From NCBI RefSeq assembly GCF_900110255.1, contig NZ_FODD01000009.1, positions 124,001 through 188,000 of the forward strand: a DNA stretch of 64,000 bases, written 5' to 3'. How positions within the stretch are numbered: position 1 is the first letter of the stretch; each line of letters begins with the position of its first letter. Position numbers and translations under genes: made by a program. The stretch is from Actinacidiphila rubida (GTDB lineage Bacteria; Actinomycetota; Actinomycetes; Streptomycetales; Streptomycetaceae). Under the pieces are notes generated by a model. It was not told the DNA's origin. It did not search any database and saw only the letters and a list, made by a program, of their open reading frames with translations. Below, one piece after another: positions 8,475 to 63,757 of this stretch.

Positions 8475-8664
8475 GCGGGGCATCCTGGCGCGTCCGGCTC
8501 GCCGCCCGCCATCCGTTTGTCCGGACGGTCGGGGGCGCGCACGTCCCCGCCGGCACCCGACGCGCCCCAGGGCGTACATCCGCTGCCCGTCCTCGCGGAC
8601 GAGCCCCTGCCTCGAAGTGCGCGGCACGCCGGGTCCTATGATGCACGGATCCACACGCATCCCT

Positions 8665-8674
8665 GGGGGGGGGG
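8665..8674 (+). repeat. Poly-G tract of ten in a ribosome-binding region
   Basis: Ten consecutive G residues followed by ACCC end four bases before the ATG of the FG-GAP gene. The tract must serve as, or overlap, the ribosome-binding site. A slippage-prone homopolymer here could vary start-site spacing. Confidence 0.85.
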
Positions 8675-8678
8675 ACCC

Positions 8679-10346
8679 ATGACTGCCCGACGTACCTTGC
8701 GCCTGTTCAGAACAGCCGTCGCCACCGCCCTGACAGCCGGGTCCGTGCTCGGCAGCGTGGCTGTGTCACCGGTGTCCGCGGCCGCGCCCGCCGCCACCAC
8801 CACGACGGCCGCCAAGGCACCGAACGACTTCGACGGGGACGGCCGGAGTGACCTCGTCGGCCTCGACTCCTTCGACCGGCTTGCGGTGCTGTGGCGCACC
8901 GACGCGGAGACCACGATCGGCGGCGGCGACGCTCAGGTGCGGGGCATGCCGGTCAACTACCAGAAGATCGCGGCGCCGGGCGATCTCGACGGTGACGGCC
9001 TGCCCGACGTGCTGGCGGTGCGGCCGTCCGGCCAGCTGCGGATCTTCTCCAGCCGCCTGCACGAGACGACCGACGGCGGCCCGGGCTCGACCGGCCCGAA
9101 GTCGCCCACCGTCATCGGAAGCGGCTGGCAGGCCTACAGCATGCTGCTCACCCCCGGCGACCTGAACGCCGACGGCCGCCCGGACCTGCTGGCCCGCGGC
9201 TACGACGGCAGCCTGTGGTTCTACGCCGGCACCGGCAGCGCCACCGCACCGTTCAGGGCCCGGGCGAAGGTCGGCACCGGCTGGAACATGTACGACCAGA
9301 CGCTCGGCGCCGGTGACTTCGACGGCAACGGGTACGGCGACGTCATCGCCCGCGACCTCCAGGGCCGGCTGTGGCTCTACCCGGGCGTCGGCGGCGGCAA
9401 GCTCGGCGCCCGCCGCCAGATCGGCACCGGCTGGCAGGCCTACAACCAGCTCATCGGCGACGTCGACTGGAACGGCGACGGCCACCTCGACCTGCTCGCC
9501 CGGGCGCTCGACGGCACGCTGTACCTCTACGCCGGCGACGGCCACGGCGCCTACAAGGCCCGCACGACGGCGGGTATGCGGGAGAAGACGGACGCCTTCG
9601 CCGACCAGGGAGGCATCTACTCCTGGGGGAAGAACAACCTCGTCGGCCACCTGACCGACGGCCATTTCGCCTGGTACTACGCGAACAACGACGGCCCCGT
9701 CACCAGGTACGGCGCCGACCCGTGGAACCACGACACGGAACTGGAGGGCGCCAAGCGGGTCACCAACCCCGCGTCGCTCTCCGACAACGGTCAGCTCGGA
9801 TACCTCTACGACGACGGCTACGGCAACCTCATCCCCCCCTCCGGGAACGGCGTGACCGGTGCCCGCTCGTACTCCCTCTTCCTTGCCCCCGGCGACCTGA
9901 CCGGCGACGGCACCACGGACCTGGTCGTGCGGACCACCTCGGGCGGCCTGTACGTGCTTCCCGGCAACGGCGGCGACGACGAGAGGTTCGGCGCCAAGCG
10001 CTACGTCGGAGCCGGCTGGAACATCTACAACCGGATCGTCGGAGCCGGCGACTTCACCGGCGACGGCCGCACCGACATCGCGGCCACCACACCCGGCGGA
10101 GCGCTGTACATCTACCCCGGTCGCGGGGACGGGACGTTCGCCGCGCGCCACTACGTCGGCAGCGGCTGGCAGGGATACAGCAAGCTCGCGGCACCCGGCG
10201 ACCTCACCGGAGACGGCAAGGCCGACCTGGCGGGCGTGGACTCGGCCGGCCGGCTGTGGCTCTACCCCGGCAACGGGGCATCCGCCTTCGGCGCGCGCAA
10301 GGAGATCGGCACGGCGGGATGGAACGGATTCAGCGAACTCAGCTGA
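8679..10346 (+). CDS. Secreted FG-GAP/VCBS repeat protein
   Basis: A 555-residue exported protein of unknown role. An N-terminal signal peptide (RRTLRLFRTAVATALTAGSV, Ala-rich cleavage region near residue 37) is followed by about eight FG-GAP repeats with calcium-binding loops such as FDGDGRSDLVGLD, GDLDGDGLPDVLAV, GDLNADGRPDLLAR, GDLTGDGTTDLVVR and GDFTGDGRTDIAAT. These blades usually build a seven- or eight-bladed beta-propeller. No catalytic domain is fused, so it is probably a stand-alone adhesin, binding protein or propeller with unknown ligand. The start is the ATG after the poly-G tract because the signal peptide begins there, although the frame is open far upstream. Confidence 0.88.
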   Translation: MTARRTLRLFRTAVATALTAGSVLGSVAVSPVSAAAPAATTTTAAKAPNDFDGDGRSDLVGLDSFDRLAVLWRTDAETTIGGGDAQVRGMPVNYQKIAAPGDLDGDGLPDVLAVRPSGQLRIFSSRLHETTDGGPGSTGPKSPTVIGSGWQAYSMLLTPGDLNADGRPDLLARGYDGSLWFYAGTGSATAPFRARAKVGTGWNMYDQTLGAGDFDGNGYGDVIARDLQGRLWLYPGVGGGKLGARRQIGTGWQAYNQLIGDVDWNGDGHLDLLARALDGTLYLYAGDGHGAYKARTTAGMREKTDAFADQGGIYSWGKNNLVGHLTDGHFAWYYANNDGPVTRYGADPWNHDTELEGAKRVTNPASLSDNGQLGYLYDDGYGNLIPPSGNGVTGARSYSLFLAPGDLTGDGTTDLVVRTTSGGLYVLPGNGGDDERFGAKRYVGAGWNIYNRIVGAGDFTGDGRTDIAATTPGGALYIYPGRGDGTFAARHYVGSGWQGYSKLAAPGDLTGDGKADLAGVDSAGRLWLYPGNGASAFGARKEIGTAGWNGFSELS

Positions 10347-10455
10347 GACGGGTCCCCGGGTGCTGTGGGGTCGGGAAGGGACGACCCGCCGTGCCCCCAC
10401 CACCCGCCCTGCTTGGACGCCTGACGTCGAGGGCCGAGGACCGGCCGTGGGCGCG

Positions 10456-10488
10456 GCCCTGACCTGCTACAAGAAGGTCGGTCAGGGC
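10456..10488. terminator. Hairpin between the FG-GAP and TetR genes
   Basis: Perfect nine-base arms GCCCTGACC and GGTCAGGGC around a 15-base loop; the right arm overlaps the TetR stop codon. It could terminate both convergent transcripts. There is no T run, so this is moderate evidence. Confidence 0.4.
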
Positions 10489-11081
10489 TGGTCGTCCACG
10501 AGGGTGACTGCGCGCGTTTCGGGAACGCCCAGCATCAGCAGGGTCGTGATCGTCGCTGCGCGGGCGCCGAGGGTCCCGTTCTGCTGGTCGTCGTCCGCGA
10601 GGGCGAACACGACGCCGTAGGCGACCTGGCTCAGAGTGCCCGCCGGCAGGTGCTGTGCGAACACGTCGCCGTCCTGGCCCCGTTCCACGAGGTCGGCGAG
10701 GAGCTCGTCGACCGGCCCGAGCAGGCCGTGGATCGCCTCGCCGTACTCGCCGCGGCGCAGCGCCAACAGCACGCGGTACCGGTGCGTGACCGGCCAGACG
10801 CGGGCGATGAACTCGACCCACGCCGCGTCCGCCGCCGCGCCGGAGGCGTTGATGTCGGTGAGCACGGCGGTCATCTCGGCGACGGCCCGTTCCGTGAGGG
10901 TCCGGACGAGGTCGAGGCGCGAGGGGAAATGGCCGTAGACCGTGCGACGGACGACGCCGGCAGCGGAGGCGATGTCGCCCATTCCGGCGTCGGGGTTCTC
11001 TCCCAGCACATCGAGGGCGACGTCGAGGATGCGATCGCGTGTCTCGTTCATCGAGCGCGCGCGGGAGGACTCAGTGGGCAC
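10482..11081 (-). CDS. TetR family repressor divergent from the epoxide hydrolase
   Basis: A 199-residue TetR-type regulator. The N-terminal helix-turn-helix reads RDRILDVALDVLGENPDAGMGDIASAAGVVRRTVYGHFPSRLDLVRTL (shortened family pattern: IASAAGVVRRTVYGHFPSR), and the rest is an all-helical ligand-binding domain with no recognised specificity. The GTG at 11081 is used; an internal ATG at 11051 would give 189 residues and also keep the HTH intact. It is transcribed away from the epoxide hydrolase, and two copies of a TGCACA-N4-TGTGCA palindrome sit between them, so it most likely represses both genes and is released by an epoxide, a xenobiotic or a related ligand. Confidence 0.9.
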   Translation of the reverse strand: MPTESSRARSMNETRDRILDVALDVLGENPDAGMGDIASAAGVVRRTVYGHFPSRLDLVRTLTERAVAEMTAVLTDINASGAAADAAWVEFIARVWPVTHRYRVLLALRRGEYGEAIHGLLGPVDELLADLVERGQDGDVFAQHLPAGTLSQVAYGVVFALADDDQQNGTLGARAATITTLLMLGVPETRAVTLVDDQP

Positions 11082-11091
11082 GCGACCATTG

Positions 11092-11120
11092 TTGCACAGT
11101 GGTGTGCAGCGAAGTACGCT
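11092..11120 (+). promoter_or_regulatory. Promoter of the epoxide hydrolase gene
   Basis: TTGCAC and TACGCT are separated by 17 bases, a good housekeeping-type promoter. The first TetR operator overlaps the -35 box and the second starts at the last base of the -10 box, an arrangement suited to repression. Confidence 0.6.
11093..11108. promoter_or_regulatory. TetR operator copy 1
   Basis: TGCACAGTGGTGTGCA: arms TGCACA and TGTGCA with a four-base centre. It covers the -35 region and lies just upstream of the TetR gene, so it also fits autoregulation. Confidence 0.65.
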
Positions 11121-11135
11121 GCACACTAGTGTGCA
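11120..11135. promoter_or_regulatory. TetR operator copy 2 (perfect palindrome)
   Basis: TGCACACTAGTGTGCA is a perfect 16-base palindrome sharing both arms with copy 1 and starting 27 bases after it. It covers the predicted transcription start of the epoxide hydrolase gene. Confidence 0.7.
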
Positions 11136-11178
11136 GTGGAGAGCTGCGCTGTGCTTCGAATCCCAGGAGGAGAAGGCA

Positions 11179-12345
11179 ATGACCGCACCGCCGCCGCCGC
11201 CGACCTCGACCCTCGTCCGCCCGTTCACCGTCTCGATCTCGGATGCGGAGATCGACGACCTGAAGCAGCGACTGGCCAGAACCCGATGGCCGGATCCGGA
11301 GACGGTGGGCGACTGGTCGCAAGGGGTTCGCCTGCAGAACGCCAGGTCTCTGGTCGACTACTGGGAGCGCGGCTACGACTGGCGGCGCCTGGAGTCCGAG
11401 CTCAATCGCTTCCCCCAGTTCCTGACCGAGATCGACGGGCTGGATATCCACTTCGTCCACGTCAGGTCCAAGAACCCCCGCGCGATGCCGCTGATCCTCA
11501 CGCACGGATGGCCGGGGTCAATCGTCGAGTTCCTGAAGCTGATCGGCCCGCTGACCGATCCGGTCCCGTTCGGAGGAGACGCCGCCGATTCCTTCGACGT
11601 GGTGGTGCCGTCGCTCCCCGGGTTCGGCTTCTCCCAGAAGCCCACGGAGACCGGGTGGACCGTGTCGCGCATCGCAAGCGCGTGGGCGGAACTGATGAGG
11701 CGTCTCGGCTACACGAGATGGGCCGCGCAAGGCGGTGACTGGGGTGCCGTCGTCACCACCGCCCTCGGGGCCATGCAACCTGAGGGGCTTCTCGGAATTC
11801 ATCTGAACACCCAGTTCGCCTTTCCCGCACAGATACCCGACGCCCTTTCGCCCGAACAGCGCCATGCCGTGGAGACTCTCGCCGTCTACACCGGCGATCT
11901 CGGTGGGTCCAACCACCTTCAGGGCACGAAGCCGGAGACCGTCGGATTCGCCCTGGCGGACTCTCCCGCCGGTCAGGCGGCCTGGATCTACGAGAAGTTC
12001 CAGTCCAAGACCGACAACCGCGGGCTCGCCGAGGACGCCCTCAGCAGGGACGACATGCTCGACGCGATATCCCTCTACTGGTTCACCAACAGCGCGGCGT
12101 CGTCCGCCCGCATCTATTGGGAGAACAGATCGGGCACTTTCGCCGGCCCGAAGCTCACACTTCCGGTCGCGGTGACCGTCTTCCCGAAGGACATCCCACG
12201 CCTGCCGCGAAGCTGGATCGAAGACACCTACAGCAATCTCATCCACTACGGCGAGGCCGCCAAGGGCGGCCACTTCGCAGCCCTGGAACAGCCCGAGATC
12301 CTGGTCAGCGAAATCCGCACCGGCCTGCGCAGCCTCCGCTCCTGA
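11179..12345 (+). CDS. Epoxide hydrolase (alpha/beta hydrolase with EHN domain)
   Basis: Hydrolyses an epoxide to a diol through an enzyme-ester intermediate; cytoplasmic. The 388-residue protein starts with the epoxide-hydrolase N-terminal domain (FTVSISDAEIDDLKQRLARTRWPD) and continues with the alpha/beta-hydrolase fold: oxyanion motif HGWPG at 109-113, nucleophile Asp187 in GGDWG, and the general-base His365 in KGGHFAALEQP. Length and motifs match the juvenile-hormone/microsomal-type bacterial family. An AGGAGG-type site lies a few bases before the ATG. Expression is probably controlled by the divergent TetR repressor. The natural substrate cannot be read from the sequence. Confidence 0.92.
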   Translation: MTAPPPPPTSTLVRPFTVSISDAEIDDLKQRLARTRWPDPETVGDWSQGVRLQNARSLVDYWERGYDWRRLESELNRFPQFLTEIDGLDIHFVHVRSKNPRAMPLILTHGWPGSIVEFLKLIGPLTDPVPFGGDAADSFDVVVPSLPGFGFSQKPTETGWTVSRIASAWAELMRRLGYTRWAAQGGDWGAVVTTALGAMQPEGLLGIHLNTQFAFPAQIPDALSPEQRHAVETLAVYTGDLGGSNHLQGTKPETVGFALADSPAGQAAWIYEKFQSKTDNRGLAEDALSRDDMLDAISLYWFTNSAASSARIYWENRSGTFAGPKLTLPVAVTVFPKDIPRLPRSWIEDTYSNLIHYGEAAKGGHFAALEQPEILVSEIRTGLRSLRS

Positions 12346-57738: not shown

Positions 57739-57788
57739 GAAATCACGTGCCGTGCGGAACCGGTATCCCTCATTCCCCAGGGAGCAGC

Positions 57789-58313
57789 GTGAACTTCCTG
57801 TCCAAAGCAAGGCGTCAGGGCTCCGACGCCGGCGCACAGCGCCCGCGGGAGGCCGTCATCCGGCCCGTCACCGAATCCGATCTCCCCGACATCGAGCGCC
57901 TGGACCGGGCGGTGTTCGGCGACGCCGCCTATCCGATGTTCGTGGTGCGCCAGCTCTTCGACGTGCACGGCCACCACATGCTCGCCCTCGACACCCCCAC
58001 GGGCCTGCACGGGTACGTGCTGCTGGCCACCGCCCGCGGCCGGGACACCGCCTGGATCCTCAGCCTCGGCGTGGAGGAGCCGTGGCGCAAGAAGGGGTAC
58101 GGCCGCCGGCTGCTCTCGCAGTGCCTGCGCGACCTGGCCGACCGCGACCTGCGCGAGATCCGGCTGAGCGTCGAGCCGGGCAACGACGCGGCCGTGCAGC
58201 TGTACCGCTCGCTGGGGTTCGTCCCCGCGGTGACCAGAGCCGACTACCTGGGGCCGGGCGAGGACCGGCTCATCATGGCGCTGCCGGTGGCCGGAGGGCC
58301 GCAAGGCCGGTGA
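57789..58313 (+). CDS. GNAT family N-acetyltransferase
   Basis: A 174-residue protein with a single GNAT domain: IRPVTESDLPDIERLDRAVFGDAAYP, LSLGVEEPWRKKGYGRRLLSQCL (acetyl-CoA loop), and LSVEPGNDAAVQLYRSLGFVP. It resembles RimI-type protein N-acetyltransferases, but the substrate is not clear. GTG start with AGGGAG upstream. It is divergent from the SCO2525-type operon and could be functionally linked to it only by position. Confidence 0.9.
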   Translation: MNFLSKARRQGSDAGAQRPREAVIRPVTESDLPDIERLDRAVFGDAAYPMFVVRQLFDVHGHHMLALDTPTGLHGYVLLATARGRDTAWILSLGVEEPWRKKGYGRRLLSQCLRDLADRDLREIRLSVEPGNDAAVQLYRSLGFVPAVTRADYLGPGEDRLIMALPVAGGPQGR

Positions 58314-58423: not shown

Positions 58424-59221
58424 TCAGCCGTCGCGGCGCTCCAGCATCAGCCAGCCCGCGCTGAGCGCCGCGGCCGCCCAGGCGGCGAGGACCGCGAGGC
58501 CGGACCAGGGGCCGATCGGCGCGGTGCCGGTGCCCGGGACCAGGGACTGCGCGGCCAGGCCCGCGGACATCGGCGACGCGTCCTGCACCGCGTGCAGGAC
58601 GTGGACGGGCATCGGGACGATCCGGGACGCGACGAACGGGCCGTAGAGCAGGCCGGCGACCGCGCCCACCGCGGCGGCCTGGTGGCGGAGCACCCAGGCC
58701 GCGCCCAGGGCCAGCACTCCGACCAGCACCAGATAGAGCACGGTGCCGGCGGCCGCCCGCAGCAGCGCGGGGTCCGACAGCGGGACCGGTCCGCGACCCG
58801 CCCGGGCGGTGAAGCCCCGCGCGGAGAGCACCTCGTGCCCGGCGGCCAGCGCGGCGGCCACGCCGAGCACCGCGCTGACCAGCACCGCCGCCGTGGCCAC
58901 CGCCGCCTTCGCGAGGAGCACGGTGCCGCGCCCGGGCCGCGCCGCCAGCGTCAGCAGGATCACCCGCGGCTGGTACTCGCCGGAGACCAGCGCCACCGCG
59001 ACGGCCAGCGCCGCCAGTTGGGCCAGGTAGACGCCCGACAGGACCAGCGCGGTGATGTCCTGCGGCGCGCAGCCCCCGCCCGGCCCGCAGTCCGGCGGCC
59101 GTTGCGTGGCCGCCACCAGGACCCCGGCCGCGGCCAGCACCGCGGTGACGGCGGCGAGCGTCCACAGGTGCGCGGGGACGGTGACCAGCTTGGTCCACTC
59201 CGCGTGCAGGGCCCGCCTCAT
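58424..59221 (-). CDS. ABC-2 type exporter permease
   Basis: A 265-residue integral membrane protein with six membrane segments (LHAEWTKLVTVPAHLWTLAAV at the N-terminus; MLERRDG at the end). Start HAEWTKL is typical of ABC-2 permeases of lantibiotic-immunity or antibiotic-export type. ATGA overlap with the upstream permease gene. Last gene of the three-gene exporter operon. Confidence 0.85.
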   Translation of the reverse strand: MRRALHAEWTKLVTVPAHLWTLAAVTAVLAAAGVLVAATQRPPDCGPGGGCAPQDITALVLSGVYLAQLAALAVAVALVSGEYQPRVILLTLAARPGRGTVLLAKAAVATAAVLVSAVLGVAAALAAGHEVLSARGFTARAGRGPVPLSDPALLRAAAGTVLYLVLVGVLALGAAWVLRHQAAAVGAVAGLLYGPFVASRIVPMPVHVLHAVQDASPMSAGLAAQSLVPGTGTAPIGPWSGLAVLAAWAAAALSAGWLMLERRDG

Positions 59222-60690
59222 GCGTCGCGCCGGCGCTGCAGCCAGAACGCGGCGCCGAGCGCGACCGCGGTGTACGCGGCGAGCACCGCGAAGCCCGGCC
59301 ACGGACCGATGGCGTTCTCGAACAGCGGCTGCGTCTGCCGGATCGCCGCCCCGGCGATGGGCGTCGCCCGGCCGACCCACAGCCCCGCTCCGACCGATGT
59401 CACCTGCGCCACCAGCGGGATCACCACCAGCACGGTGAACAGCAGGATCACCGCTGCGGCCGTCCGCCGCACGATCACCCCCACGGCCAGGCTGAGCAGC
59501 GCGACGAGGGCGAGGAAGGCCGCGGTGCCGGCCACCGCCCGCAGCACCACCGGATCCGTCAGCGAGTGCCGCGGGAAGATCGGCGGCCCGTAGCCGTTCC
59601 CGCGCTGGATGGGCTGGGCGATGAGGAACGAGGCCGCGCAGGCGACGAGTCCGGCCGCGAACACCCCCGCGGCCACCACGAGCGCCTTGGCGGCCAGGAC
59701 CCGGCCGCGGTGCGGGCTGACCGTGAAGGTCGTCCGGATGGTGCGGGTCCGGTACTCCGAGGTCATCGCGAGCACGCCGAGCGCGATCACCGCGAACAGC
59801 CCTATCTGGACGCCGCTGAGCGTCGAGGCCACGGTGTCGCTGTCGCCGTCCTGGCCGATGCCGCCCACGCCGGGGGTCCCCACGTCGCCGCTGCCCGTCA
59901 CGGTGAAGGCCGTGCCCGCCTCGTGCAGGGTGCCCGGTCCGGCGGTCCGCGCCGGCATGCCCGCAGGACCCGGCGGCTGCTCCACGTCCGTCAACTGCCA
60001 GGCCCCCGCGCCGCCCGGCACACCCGCCTCCGCGCCGCCCGCCGTCGCGCCCGACGGGCCGCTCGCCGTCAGGTGGTCGAACACCGCGCGGCCCGTGGTG
60101 GCCTGGGCGCTGCCCACCACCTTGCCCGGCCCCGCCCAGTGCGAGCGTGCGAACGGCGGCGAGGCCACGAACGTGCCGGCCTCCGCGGTCGCGGGCAGAC
60201 CGGTGTCCGGGACGCTGCCCACGGTGTGCCAGGTGCGGCCGTCGGCCGACTCCGCGCCCGTGACGCGGCCGCCGGAGCGGGTCAGCCGCAGCCAGTACGG
60301 CGCCGCGGCTCCGCCGCTGCCGGTGAACTCCTCCGTCCCGCGGGCCGCCTGCATCCGCACACCGTGTCCCGGGGTGAGCATCAGCGACACCGACGGCGAG
60401 CCGCTGCCGGTCCCGGACTTGAGCATCAGTCCGGCCTTCGCCCACGGCGCGGTGTCGGCCTGGGAGGTCACCTCCGCGGTGACGGTCACGTCACCGGTCG
60501 CCGGCCGGTGCACGAACGTGAACCCGTCCAGGCGGGTGGGCCCGCCGTAACTGCTGTGCCCGCCCTCGGCGGTGAGCACACCGATCAGCACCACCAGGGC
60601 GACGGTCGCCAGCAGCGCGGCGCCGGTGCTGCGCACCGACCGCAGCTTGGCCCACTCGGCCCGTACCGCCCGCAGCAGGGAGGTCGTCAT
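59218..60690 (-). CDS. ABC-2 permease with a large extracytoplasmic beta-sandwich insert
   Basis: A 490-residue permease. AVRAEWAKLRSVRSTGAALLATVALVVLIG is the first membrane segment (in parts); about 230 residues outside the membrane follow, starting LDGFTFVHRPATGDVTVTAEVTSQADTAPWAKAGLML (in part), resembling the DUF1349/laminin-G-like sandwich that recognises carbohydrates, then five further segments beginning IGLFAVIALGVLAM. Typical ABC-2 permeases have about 260 residues, so the insert is notable. Overlaps the ATPase stop by ATGA and co-translates with it. Confidence 0.87.
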   Translation of the reverse strand: MTTSLLRAVRAEWAKLRSVRSTGAALLATVALVVLIGVLTAEGGHSSYGGPTRLDGFTFVHRPATGDVTVTAEVTSQADTAPWAKAGLMLKSGTGSGSPSVSLMLTPGHGVRMQAARGTEEFTGSGGAAAPYWLRLTRSGGRVTGAESADGRTWHTVGSVPDTGLPATAEAGTFVASPPFARSHWAGPGKVVGSAQATTGRAVFDHLTASGPSGATAGGAEAGVPGGAGAWQLTDVEQPPGPAGMPARTAGPGTLHEAGTAFTVTGSGDVGTPGVGGIGQDGDSDTVASTLSGVQIGLFAVIALGVLAMTSEYRTRTIRTTFTVSPHRGRVLAAKALVVAAGVFAAGLVACAASFLIAQPIQRGNGYGPPIFPRHSLTDPVVLRAVAGTAAFLALVALLSLAVGVIVRRTAAAVILLFTVLVVIPLVAQVTSVGAGLWVGRATPIAGAAIRQTQPLFENAIGPWPGFAVLAAYTAVALGAAFWLQRRRDA

Positions 60691-61628
60691 GGCCGCGGCT
60701 CCTCGGTCTCGTGCGCGTGCGCCCGGAACTCGGTCGCGTCGCGGGTCAGGTCCAGATAGGCCTCCTCCAGGGAGGCGCGGTGCGGTGCCAGGGACGAGAA
60801 CGGCACCGCGCCGCCGCCGAGTTCGGCCGCCACGCGTTCCGCGGGCAAGCCGGCGACGGTCAGCGCGTCGGTACCGAGCACCGACACCGTCGCGCCGGCC
60901 GCGGCCAGCACCGTCATGGCCTCGGAACGGTGGGAGGTGTGCAGCACCACCCGGTCGCCGGAGGCCGCCGCGAGCAGCGCGTCGACCGCCGTGTCCGCCA
61001 GCAGCCGGCCGCGGCCGATCACGATCACGTGGTCGGCGGTGTCCTGCAGTTCGCTCATCAGATGGCTGGAGACCAGCACCGTGCGGCCCTCGGCGGCCAG
61101 CGACCGGAGCAGGCCGCGGATCCACCGGATCCCCTCGGGGTCGAGCCCGTTGACCGGCTCGTCGAGGATCAGCACCCGCGGGTCGCCGAGCAGCGCCCCG
61201 GCGATGCCCAGCCGCTGGCGCATGCCCAGCGAGAACCCGCCGGCCCGCTTGCCGGCCGCCGAGCCCAGCCCGACCGTCTCCAGCACCTCGTCGACCCGGC
61301 CGGCCGGCAGTCCGTTGTAGCGCGCCTGCCACAGCAGATGGGCCCGCGCGCGCCGCCCCGGGTGCACCGCCTCGGCGTCCAGCAGCGCACCGACGACCCG
61401 CAGCGGGTCGCGCAGCGCGCGGTACGGCCGGCCGCCGATCAGCGCGCTGCCGCCGTCGGGCGCGTCCAGGCCGAGCAGCATCCGCAGGGTGGTCGACTTG
61501 CCGGCGCCGTTCGGCCCGACGAAACCGGTGACCCTGCCCGGCTCCACGGTGAAGGACAGCGCGTCCACCGCCACCGTGTGCCCGTAGGTCTTGCTGAGAC
61601 CGCTCACCGCGATCGTCCACTCCGTCAT
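60687..61628 (-). CDS. ABC transporter ATP-binding protein (DrrA type)
   Basis: Energises the two permeases. The 313-residue protein has Walker A GPNGAGKSTT, Q-loop region LLDAEAVHPGR, signature FSLGMRQRLGIA, Walker B VLILDEPVNGLDPEG and H-loop VSSHLM, followed by a C-terminal accessory domain of about 80 residues typical of antibiotic exporters. TAGCGT lies seven bases upstream of the ATG with only a poor ribosome-binding site, so the transcript may start at or next to the ATG. Divergent from the histidine kinase, which probably controls it. Confidence 0.92.
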   Translation of the reverse strand: MTEWTIAVSGLSKTYGHTVAVDALSFTVEPGRVTGFVGPNGAGKSTTLRMLLGLDAPDGGSALIGGRPYRALRDPLRVVGALLDAEAVHPGRRARAHLLWQARYNGLPAGRVDEVLETVGLGSAAGKRAGGFSLGMRQRLGIAGALLGDPRVLILDEPVNGLDPEGIRWIRGLLRSLAAEGRTVLVSSHLMSELQDTADHVIVIGRGRLLADTAVDALLAAASGDRVVLHTSHRSEAMTVLAAAGATVSVLGTDALTVAGLPAERVAAELGGGAVPFSSLAPHRASLEEAYLDLTRDATEFRAHAHETEEPRP

Positions 61629-61641: not shown

Positions 61642-61736
61642 CTGACGGCCGGCGCCGCTGCCGTCCCGCGCACGGGGAGTCCTGACGCGGCACGCCATCC
61701 CCCGCGCGGGGGACGCGACCTGCCGGAAACGCTGCG

Positions 61737-61748: not shown

Positions 61749-63026
61749 ATGAGCCCCCCGTCGCCGCTGTCGCCGCCGTTCTCCGGACGCTGCGCGGCCG
61801 TGCTGCGCCGGGCCGTCGCCGCGGAGGACCTGCCGCTCGTGGCGGCCGCGGCGCTGGGCACCCTGGCGCTCGCGCAGGCCGCGGCGGCGGGCAGCGGCCA
61901 GGGCCAGGACCGCGCGTCCTCGGCGATCGCGGGCGCCCTCGCCCTGGCGCTCGGCTCGACCGTCCCGCTGGCCTTCGTCCGCGCCCAACTCGTGCCGGCC
62001 GCGACCGCGATCGCCGCCGCCGTGCTGCTGGCGCCGCAGAGCGGCGTGACGCCCACCGCGGCCGGACTGGCCGCGCTCGCGGCCGTGCTGTACCTGGTCG
62101 GACTGCGCTGCCGCCCGGTCGTCGCGCTGCTGTCCGCCGTGCCGTTCGTGGTGTACGCGGTGGGCGCGGGTCCGGGCCAGGCGGGCGGCAGGCCGCTGGC
62201 GGTGGCCATGCTGGCGGGCGCCTCGCTCGCACCGGCCCTCGGCGCGTACCGCAGGCACCGGCACGACGCGAGGGCCCGCGCCGCCGCGGACTGGGCCTAC
62301 GCCGACACCCTGCTGCGGCACGCGGCGCGCGGCGAACGCACGCGCATCGCAAGGGAACTGCACGACATCGTCGCCCACCACATCAGTGCCCTGTCCGTGC
62401 AGGCGGAGACGGCCCGGCTCACCACGCCGGGACTCCCGCCGGAGGGCGCCGCGAAGCTGCTGGCGATCGGCGAGACGGCCCGCGAGGCACTGGCCGAGAT
62501 GCGCCGGCTGCTCGGGGTGCTGCGCGAGGACGACGGGCCCGCGCCCGGCCCGGCACCCGCCCCGGACCTCACACCGCCGCCCGGTGGCCGCGGTCCGCTG
62601 CGGACCCGTGTGGCGCGCCACCCGCAGCCGGGCCTCGACCAGTTGCTCGCGCTGGTCGACCAGGCGCGCGAGACCACGGGGACGGTGGTGCGGCTCACCG
62701 TCCGCGGAGCGGTCCGCCCGCTGGACCCCGGTGTCGAACTGGCCGCCTTCCGCATCGCGCAGGAGGCGCTCACCAACGCCCGTCGGCACGCGCCCGGCAG
62801 CGCGGTCGACGTCGAACTGCTCTACGGGAAAAGGGAGTTGCGGGTGACCGTCCGTGACAGCGGGCCGGGCGGGGTGCCCGTCGCCGGCGGCCACGGCCTG
62901 ATCGGCATGCGGGAGCGCACCGCGATGGCGGGCGGCACCCTGGCGGCGGGACCGGGCCGGATCACCGGCTTCGTCGTGGACGCGCGCCTGCCGCTGCCCC
63001 CGGCCGGCGATCGGCGCGCGGCGTGA
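61749..63026 (+). CDS. Sensor histidine kinase (DesK/NarX HisKA_3 type)
   Basis: A 425-residue sensor with about four N-terminal membrane segments (residues 28-165) and no large extracellular loop, as in the 'intramembrane sensing' kinases paired with exporters. The phosphoacceptor His205 lies in RTRIARELHDIVAHHIS; the HATPase_c domain follows with FRIAQEALTNARRHAPG and GHGLIGMRERTAM. It overlaps the response regulator start by four bases (GTGA). Divergent from the ABC operon, it most likely detects the exported compound or envelope stress. Confidence 0.93.
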   Translation: MSPPSPLSPPFSGRCAAVLRRAVAAEDLPLVAAAALGTLALAQAAAAGSGQGQDRASSAIAGALALALGSTVPLAFVRAQLVPAATAIAAAVLLAPQSGVTPTAAGLAALAAVLYLVGLRCRPVVALLSAVPFVVYAVGAGPGQAGGRPLAVAMLAGASLAPALGAYRRHRHDARARAAADWAYADTLLRHAARGERTRIARELHDIVAHHISALSVQAETARLTTPGLPPEGAAKLLAIGETAREALAEMRRLLGVLREDDGPAPGPAPAPDLTPPPGGRGPLRTRVARHPQPGLDQLLALVDQARETTGTVVRLTVRGAVRPLDPGVELAAFRIAQEALTNARRHAPGSAVDVELLYGKRELRVTVRDSGPGGVPVAGGHGLIGMRERTAMAGGTLAAGPGRITGFVVDARLPLPPAGDRRAA

Positions 63027-63757
63027 GCGGGCCGGGCGAGCGGGACGTGCGCGACGAGCGGGCCGAGCGCGAGGCCGCGGGCCCGGTGCGCCTCCTGGTC
63101 GTCGACGACCAGGACATCGTCCGGGCCGGGTTCGCCGCGCTGCTCGGCAGCCAGCCCGACTTCGACGTGGTCGGCAGCGCGGCCGACGGTGCCGCGGCGG
63201 TCCGGCTGTGCGACGCGCTGCGCCCCGACGTCGTGCTGATGGACGTGCGCATGCCCGTGCTCGACGGCATCGAGGCGGCCCGGCGGATCACCGGGCGGCC
63301 CGGCCCCGCACCGCGAATCATCATGCTCACCACCTTCGACCTGGACGAGCACGTCTACGACGCGCTGGCCGCGGGCGCCAGCGGCTTCCTCCTCAAGGAC
63401 ATGGCGGCCGAGCGGCTCTTCGAGGCGGTGCGGGTGGTCGCGTCCGGCGAGGCGCTGCTCGCGCCGACCGTCACCCGGCGACTGATCGGCGAGTTCGTCC
63501 GGATGCGCCCCCAGGCCGCGGCCGCCGGTGCCGCCCTGTCCGCACTGACCCCGCGCGAGACCGACACGCTGCGGCTGGTCGCCGAGGGCCTGTCCAACGC
63601 GGAGATCGCGGAGCGCCTGGTGGTCAGCGCGGAGACCGTCAAGACCCATGTCAGCCGGGTCCTGACCAAACTGGGCGCGCGCGACCGCGCCCAGGTGATC
63701 GTCCTCGCCTACGAGCACGGTCTGGTGATCCCGGGCCGCCGCCCCGACGCGGTCTGA
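63023..63757 (+). CDS. Response regulator (NarL/LuxR type)
   Basis: A 244-residue DNA-binding regulator. The receiver domain has the acidic pocket VVDDQD (residues 27-31), phosphoacceptor Asp74 in VLMDVRMP and the Lys of GFLLKD; the C-terminal LuxR domain reads LTPRETDTLRLVAEGLSNAEIAERLVVSAETVKTHVSRVL (in parts). Co-translated with the kinase. Its likely target is the divergent ABC exporter operon. The first 20 residues are a variable charged extension. Confidence 0.95.
   Translation: MSGPGERDVRDERAEREAAGPVRLLVVDDQDIVRAGFAALLGSQPDFDVVGSAADGAAAVRLCDALRPDVVLMDVRMPVLDGIEAARRITGRPGPAPRIIMLTTFDLDEHVYDALAAGASGFLLKDMAAERLFEAVRVVASGEALLAPTVTRRLIGEFVRMRPQAAAAGAALSALTPRETDTLRLVAEGLSNAEIAERLVVSAETVKTHVSRVLTKLGARDRAQVIVLAYEHGLVIPGRRPDAV

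Follow-up and report, generated by a model that had tools for sequence, protein, structure and literature searches.

The window, as we call the whole stretch of 64,000 nucleotides analysed, encodes an ABC-2 permease that holds a folded domain between its first two membrane helices. At the level of sequence and predicted structure, this insert is a circularly permuted variant of DUF1349; permeases with the insert are associated with two-component systems whose kinases have no recognisable sensor domain and whose promoters carry class-specific boxes, and insert and system are retained after loss of the ATPase. We lean towards the proposal that the insert senses a surface ligand and that the permease signals to the sensor-less kinase, which would induce the exporter. 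The insert is probably the missing sensor because the insert-permease usually adjoins a sensor-less kinase, even in motor-less relatives. The preliminary description had raised the idea that the permease insert is the sensor, and comparative evidence now supports it.

The exporter genes lie on the minus strand in the order ATPase, permease 1, permease 2, with ATGA overlaps between the ATPase stop and the permease 1 start codon (ATG) and between the permease 1 stop and the permease 2 start. The kinase and regulator genes, on the plus strand, diverge from this operon across 120 bp. The features are as follows.

58424..59221, minus strand: ABC-2 permease 2, 265 aa, insert-less (open reading frame, sequence comparison)
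59218..60690, minus strand: ABC-2 permease 1, 490 aa, with extracytoplasmic insert (open reading frame, hydropathy, AlphaFold2 model, fold comparison)
59686..59757, minus strand: cytoplasmic TM2-TM3 loop of permease 1, residues 312-335 (EYRTRTIRTT...AAK), presumed ATPase contact (permease alignment)
59836..60555, minus strand: insert, residues 46-285, between TM1 and TM2 (hydropathy, AlphaFold2 model, alignment)
59881..60018, minus strand: displaced segment of the insert, residues 225-270, equivalent to the canonical N-terminal three strands (profiles, models)
60061..60534, minus strand: beta-sandwich core of the insert, residues 53-210, canonical strands 4 to 14 (profile comparison, models)
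60687..61628, minus strand: exporter ATPase, 313 aa (Walker A and signature motifs intact by eye)
61664..61678, no strand: second, imperfect box TCCCGCGCACGGGGA (box comparison)
61698..61713, no strand: perfect 16-bp palindrome TCCCCCGCGCGGGGGA in the 120-bp divergent promoter region, presumed regulator site (class-wide TCCC-N8-GGGA)
61749..63026, plus strand: HisKA_3 histidine kinase, multi-TM, without sensor domain (Pfam, hydropathy)
63023..63757, plus strand: NarL-type response regulator (family profile matches)

Judged from its sequence, the locus is a complete ABC-2 exporter made of an ATPase and two unlike permease halves, presumably acting in export. Permease 2 and the membrane part of permease 1 share 36% identity, and relative to permease 2 the insert of about 240 residues is extra. 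Hydropathy gave permease 1 the six-helix type, with the insert after TM1 (residues 18-45) and ahead of TM2 (286-312). By predicted fold and Pfam family, permease 1 belongs to the ABC-2 (type V) permeases: the membrane part of the AlphaFold2 model matched NosY (7o12_E; Z 18.5, rmsd 3.2, 232 aligned) in a fold comparison, and 21 of the 31 aligned permeases matched ABC2_membrane_2 at E up to 0.01, the window permease 1 itself scoring 21.9 bits, below the cut-off of 27.2. The membrane fold is thus one that NosDFY and the remaining type V ABC exporters share. NosDFY has its extracytoplasmic beta-protein, NosD, as a subunit of its own, whereas in the window system the extracytoplasmic domain sits inside the permease itself. 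The closest named relative is Actinacidiphila acidipaludis (L009), with a permease 83% identical over the matched segment. A GNAT acetyltransferase gene (window 57747-58313, plus strand) adjoins the exporter and is also found, at 84% identity, beside the exporter of that species. We rejected the insert as a defence component; PADLOC returned no match for either permease, and its ATPase matches were below any claim.

The preliminary description had placed about 230 extracytoplasmic residues between membrane segments 1 and 2, close to the 240 given by hydropathy, and had likened them to a DUF1349/laminin-G-like sandwich; it was correct and understated the case. The window permease 1 alone gave a weak match to Pfam DUF1349 (E 0.0032, 17.6 bits; cut-off 32.4), and 31 of 31 aligned permeases matched the family (PF07081) at E up to 0.01, the best at 8.9e-11. 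In a pairwise profile comparison, the insert core matched the domain of large, presumably secreted proteins at E 2.2e-44. Structure prediction, the check named beforehand, also returned a folded sandwich: the AlphaFold2 model of permease 1 from the 31-permease alignment (mean pLDDT 79.7) has the sandwich at residues 57-210 and further strands at 232-236, 254-258 and 261-266. We turned to fold comparison because a sequence search of solved structures yielded three matches at E up to 10, the best of them (yeast YJL217W) at only 0.14. The insert matched in fold the DUF1349 structures 3mep_A (ECA2234; Z 14.9, rmsd 2.3, 142 aligned) and 3o12 (yeast YJL217W; Z 14.0, rmsd 2.7, 144 aligned), and the same sandwich fold is common to the GH43 C-terminal domain 6ms3_A (Z 13.2, rmsd 2.2, 139 aligned) and CBM66 4b1m_C (Z 11.6, rmsd 2.5, 126 aligned). 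A shared fold by itself shows no ligand, and binding of a carbohydrate or of the cell wall, as raised in the preliminary description, is a possibility. Between TM1 and the sandwich, exactly two cysteines occur in 66 of 89 permeases and none in the other 23, a pattern that fits an outside, disulphide-forming position of the insert.

The insert shares WAKAG and other W/R/G positions with the canonical domains, from which it differs in the permuted strands and in having both ends joined to membrane helices. Canonical domains follow the order W..DIG..aGs...gTvtGsGaDIw..D.F..v.qpL.GDG...PWAKAGLM; the permeases have the D.F..v part at the front and the W..DIG...FTVTGsGDIGP part at the back. (The invariance of PWAKAGLM in the permease alignment is biased, since some loci were found through that motif.) A profile of the canonical domain matched the core in the window permease at E 5.5e-38, and in 25 of 31 permeases its N-terminal part gave a second match beyond the core, each time weak and nearly always not significant by itself; a pairwise profile-profile comparison of the insert tail with the canonical N-terminal segment gave E 1.5e-5. 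The models agree with this order. A canonical domain from Herbidospora (pLDDT 96.1) was predicted with strands at 7-11, 19-23 and 28-33, and then from 45-53 onward to 168-177, and apart from an extra hairpin at 180-196 the permease insert has the later strands of that model first and its three initial strands last. The alignment to 3mep_A spans 12 to 188 for the Herbidospora model (Z 21.6, rmsd 2.1, 163 aligned) and only 43 to 190 for the permease insert. In place of the canonical strand order, therefore, the insert runs through strands 4-14 and then 1-3, and it is a clear example, from nature, of a domain made to fit a membrane loop by circular permutation.

Outside the permeases, the domain was seen in large and presumably secreted proteins from Verrucomicrobiota, Planctomycetota, Armatimonadota, an archaeon and Herbidospora. 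The Herbidospora loci (L037 5923-8046 and others) hold open frames of 1419-1869 aa with three tandem DUF1349-like units; a permuted unit could naturally arise from tandem proteins of this kind. The genome that contains the window likewise encodes DUF1349-like domains within larger and presumably secreted proteins (L005, L006 and L007, the last at 209227-209661 of its contig), one DUF1349-like protein of that genome lying about 21 kb past the window end. The open-licence papers searched yielded none on the insert-permease architecture, and the DUF1349 papers among them included none on exporters.

We explored the distribution of the insert-permease with a motif-seeded search (30 permeases) and whole-genome profile searches (296 genomes of the class and 61 relatives' genomes). 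The full-length insert-permease was present in at least 24 of the 296 class genomes, the window's own included, at 28 places, a lower bound with five first-look candidates scored per genome; one further genome of the class had a partial match. Its occurrence in other genomes rules out that it is unique to the window genome. Besides the window's own, 61 full-length or partial places were recorded as L177-L237. Removal of L190 and L193, copies of L009 and L008, reduced the set from 90 to 88 loci, and L228 did not enter the counts, since its insert had gone unrecognised by the script; a divergent NarL system is present there. As controls we used 40 insert-less matches of the same profile, hand-chosen with enough flank and differing in taxon mix; all had some ATPase nearby, which in 35 was close to that of the window and in five (L137, L139, L141, L150 and L154) was only distantly like it (E about 1e-34).

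A kinase and regulator within 4.5 kb were found at 85 of 88 unique insert loci compared to 10 of 40 insert-less controls (Fisher p 2e-17), and the nearest regulator was divergent and upstream at 81 of 88 compared to 1 of 40. When only loci from the whole-genome searches were counted, with the two duplicates and L228 set aside, a system was present in 58 of 58. The three loci without a system were L013, on a contig that stops shortly upstream of the ATPase, L032 and L040. Twelve controls came from genomes in which an insert-permease is present as well, and of these six had a system nearby and one had it divergent; proximity to a two-component system is not rare in such genomes. Three further loci came from outside the class (296 phylum genomes), two with a divergent NarL system and a third that ends at the ATPase. 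The Streptomyces plasmid NZ_CP108633.1 shows the same layout in its own annotation, where the protein is named ‘ABC transporter permease subunit’. The insert-less locus L140 (6015-9861) encodes a paralogous exporter with its own divergent HisKA_3/NarL system and has no TCCC-N8-GGGA box; such systems can therefore work without an insert.

The partner systems fell into two classes. Among 89 loci, window included, 43 had a HisKA_3 kinase with a NarL-type regulator, 43 had a HAMP-HisKA kinase with an OmpR-type regulator, in two gene orders, and none was seen in three. By parsimony on the permease tree the system class changed six times while the insert stayed throughout (a quick tree of 89 rows and 478 columns that excluded the ATPase-contact loop and has 21 forks open). 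Counting only its well-supported branches still requires four or more changes for the NarL group. The window kinase has four hydropathy segments and only HisKA_3 and HATPase domains, in agreement with the preliminary description of a divergent system without a sensory loop. In the NarL class, 41 of 42 kinases have 4-6 segments; in 8 of 42 a loop of 63-92 aa was predicted, perhaps because a helix was missed or because the kinase has a small part outside. All 43 OmpR-class kinases have two TM segments with a loop of 19-76 aa between them, which reaches 25 aa or more in 41 of 43; for Bce-type kinases the loop limit is about 25 aa. A Pfam search for sensor families in 60 kinases (59 of the 85 and that of the window) found none except for one weak DUF6611 match. 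Thus, as far as domain searches can recognise, kinases of two unrelated classes partner the same insert and both lack a sensor domain. At L024, L025 and L026, a second OmpR-type two-component system is located downstream of the insert-permease operon (near 8500-11700).

The divergent promoters carry boxes that differ with the system class. In the 330 bp before the ATPase, TCCC-N8-GGGA occurred at 44 sites in 31 of 42 NarL-class loci, against an expectation of 0.21 taken from the rest of the same loci. The N8 spacing was chosen after four promoters had been aligned, three of them among the 42 loci counted, and spacings of 4 to 8 were tried, spacing 4 giving 13 sites. The same region held the box in none of the 43 OmpR-class loci and in one of the two system-less loci (L032 and L040). 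Across the whole window there were three matches for 2.07 expected, no more than chance; it is the place of the box that counts, not the number. In the OmpR class with the kinase nearest, CCTAAC-N20-32-GTTA was found at 7 of the 15 loci that have an ATPase and 3 of the 5 that do not, on which the box had itself been derived; the other 68 insert loci and the 40 controls all lacked it. Where the regulator is nearest in the OmpR class, enriched words emerged but no definable operator. The boxes suggest that the regulator binds at, and controls, the operon. A second perfect TCCCCCG..CGGGGGA palindrome of the window's genome (L238 near 1500, 125296-125311) lies upstream of a small open reading frame, CsoR-like by eye, and could be a further target or chance.

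Adjacency and promoter boxes alone fit plain transcriptional control, and we considered whether the role of the insert is substrate capture or docking of the exporter to the wall, the system only regulating transcription and sensing through its own membrane part. Control of the operon by the regulator, as suggested by the boxes, agrees with this, as do the 10 of 40 insert-less relatives with a nearby system and the fold that the insert has in common with CBM66 and GH43 C-terminal domains. The sharing of one insert by kinases of two unrelated classes, neither with a recognisable sensor domain, argues against it. So do relatives without an adjoining ATPase, in which insert and system persist with the contact loop gone and the insert is relatively more conserved. 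We therefore regard capture or docking as unlikely, albeit a serious contender to sensing by the insert.

No ATPase adjoins 12 of the 89 permeases (L031, L032, L034, L040, L178, L179, L180, L185, L208, L209, L211 and L212), all of which keep the insert; on the quick permease tree, three losses of the ATPase are needed. The TM2-TM3 loop is deleted in seven of the 12, scrambled in four and intact in one (L185). The divergent two-component system is kept at 10 of the 12 loci. In eight (L031, L034, L178, L179, L180, L209, L211 and L212) a divergent OmpR-type system is directly adjacent and there is no ATPase within 4.5 kb, and at L208 the nearest ATPase match is 3.2 kb off, beyond the two-component system. 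The insert-proteins of Nonomuraea L032 (6010-7419) and L040 (5881-7281) have neither an ATPase nor a system within 4.5 kb. An ATPase encoded elsewhere may serve these permeases.

We compared the conservation of the insert with that of the membrane part. Eleven of the ATPase-less permeases (all but L185) form 55 pairs, in which insert identity averaged 0.589 versus 0.489 for the membrane part, compared to 0.464 versus 0.471 in 2926 ATPase-bearing pairs. At a given membrane-part identity, inserts of the ATPase-less pairs were more conserved by a mean of 0.113, with 55 of 55 above the regression, and label permutation reached this in 0 of 2000 trials, a statistic that ignores phylogeny. The dN/dS of the insert was under 1 in 8 of 8 ATPase-less pairs (0.16 to 0.62), the ratios being noisy at this G+C and the loop being 31 codons long. 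In six ATPase-less pairs of the L178 clade, the loop gave 0.92-1.60 and the insert 0.26-0.62; the insert exceeded the membrane part wherever L211 was one of the pair (three pairs), and the 20-codon loop remnant compared between L179 and L180 gave 0.50, which is not neutral. Among 18 ATPase-bearing pairs the loop was under 0.55 in 15 of the 17 with a value. The dN/dS ratios and the pair conservation together point to an insert that is under constraint while the motor contact drifts.

The ATPase-less relatives also bear on BceAB-like flux sensing, in which the kinase would read the ATP-driven transport cycle and the insert merely load substrate. The likeness to Bce modules is real. BceAB-RS systems (BceRSAB, VraFG-GraRS), like the window, place an ABC exporter beside a sensor-less kinase system and have a large extracytoplasmic permease domain, and the logic of these modules, for which flux sensing has been proposed (PMC10314905), favours this explanation (PMC3023708, PMC10314905). 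The BceB loop is reported to be needed for induction (PMC3023708), and the VraG loop to interact with the kinase GraS and restrain its signalling (PMC7951975). However, BceB is described as a single 10-TM FtsX-type permease with its domain between TM7 and TM8 (PMC8003753), whereas the window type has ABC-2 halves and a DUF1349 insert between TM1 and TM2. Pfam returned no FtsX match for permease 1 at E up to 1, which together with the ABC-2/NosY fold rules out a BceB-type loop, and the label ‘BceAB-type’ in the preliminary description was dropped. The BceAB family is, moreover, reported as Firmicutes-specific apart from one exception (PMC3023708), unlike the present type, which is found in Actinomycetota with NarL or OmpR systems and lacks the ATPase in some relatives. 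Flux sensing, which had been proposed for this locus, cannot explain relatives that keep insert and system without an adjoining ATPase (10 of 12) or the promoter box kept in 3 of 5 ATPase-less loci of the kinase-nearest class, and we consider it improbable. It is more doubtful still that the ATPase-less loci are decaying relics, uninformative on function, and the insert a passive structural or adhesive domain; loss of the system as well in 2 of 12 (L032, L040) and the possibility of ATPases encoded elsewhere would agree with decay, but the insert ratios under 1 in all eight pairs and the same retained promoter boxes speak against it.

If the insert is the sensor, as we favour, it would recognise its ligand on the cell surface, and the permease would convey its own state by way of the membrane helices to the adjacent sensor-less kinase. 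The regulator would then act on the palindromic boxes in the shared divergent promoter, raising both exporter and kinase; in the window, which has the whole exporter, induction of that exporter would close the loop. We infer ligand binding, the permease-kinase contact, regulator binding and its direction, and export. More tentatively, and as something short of our expectation, a permease with a permuted lectin-like domain may be a detachable two-component receptor in Actinomycetota, for which kinases of two unrelated classes were recruited repeatedly and from which the motor was dropped in about three lineages, leaving an ATP-independent receptor. If true, this would give actinobacteria an equivalent of Bce modules assembled from different components, and would point to actinobacterial kinases whose sensor sits in a neighbouring permease. 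The natural motor-less versions would separate sensing from transport, and comparison of such naturally occurring relatives could test whether signalling goes by ligand binding or by transport flux.

With its three genes, the exporter resembles the Cpr/LanFEG systems described in PMC8003753 more than it does Bce systems. CprABC/LanFEG exporters with CprKR-type systems have one ATPase, two unlike permeases and an adjacent two-component system, all of which were found in the window. Unlike these, the window ATPase scores 192.8 bits against its best NCBIfam model, TIGR03740 (lantibiotic-protection subfamily), below the curated cut-off of 309.75, and neither window permease matched the lantibiotic permease models at E up to 1. 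The Cpr kinase is assumed to sense via its own extracellular loop (PMC8003753); in the window system this role would have moved to the permease.
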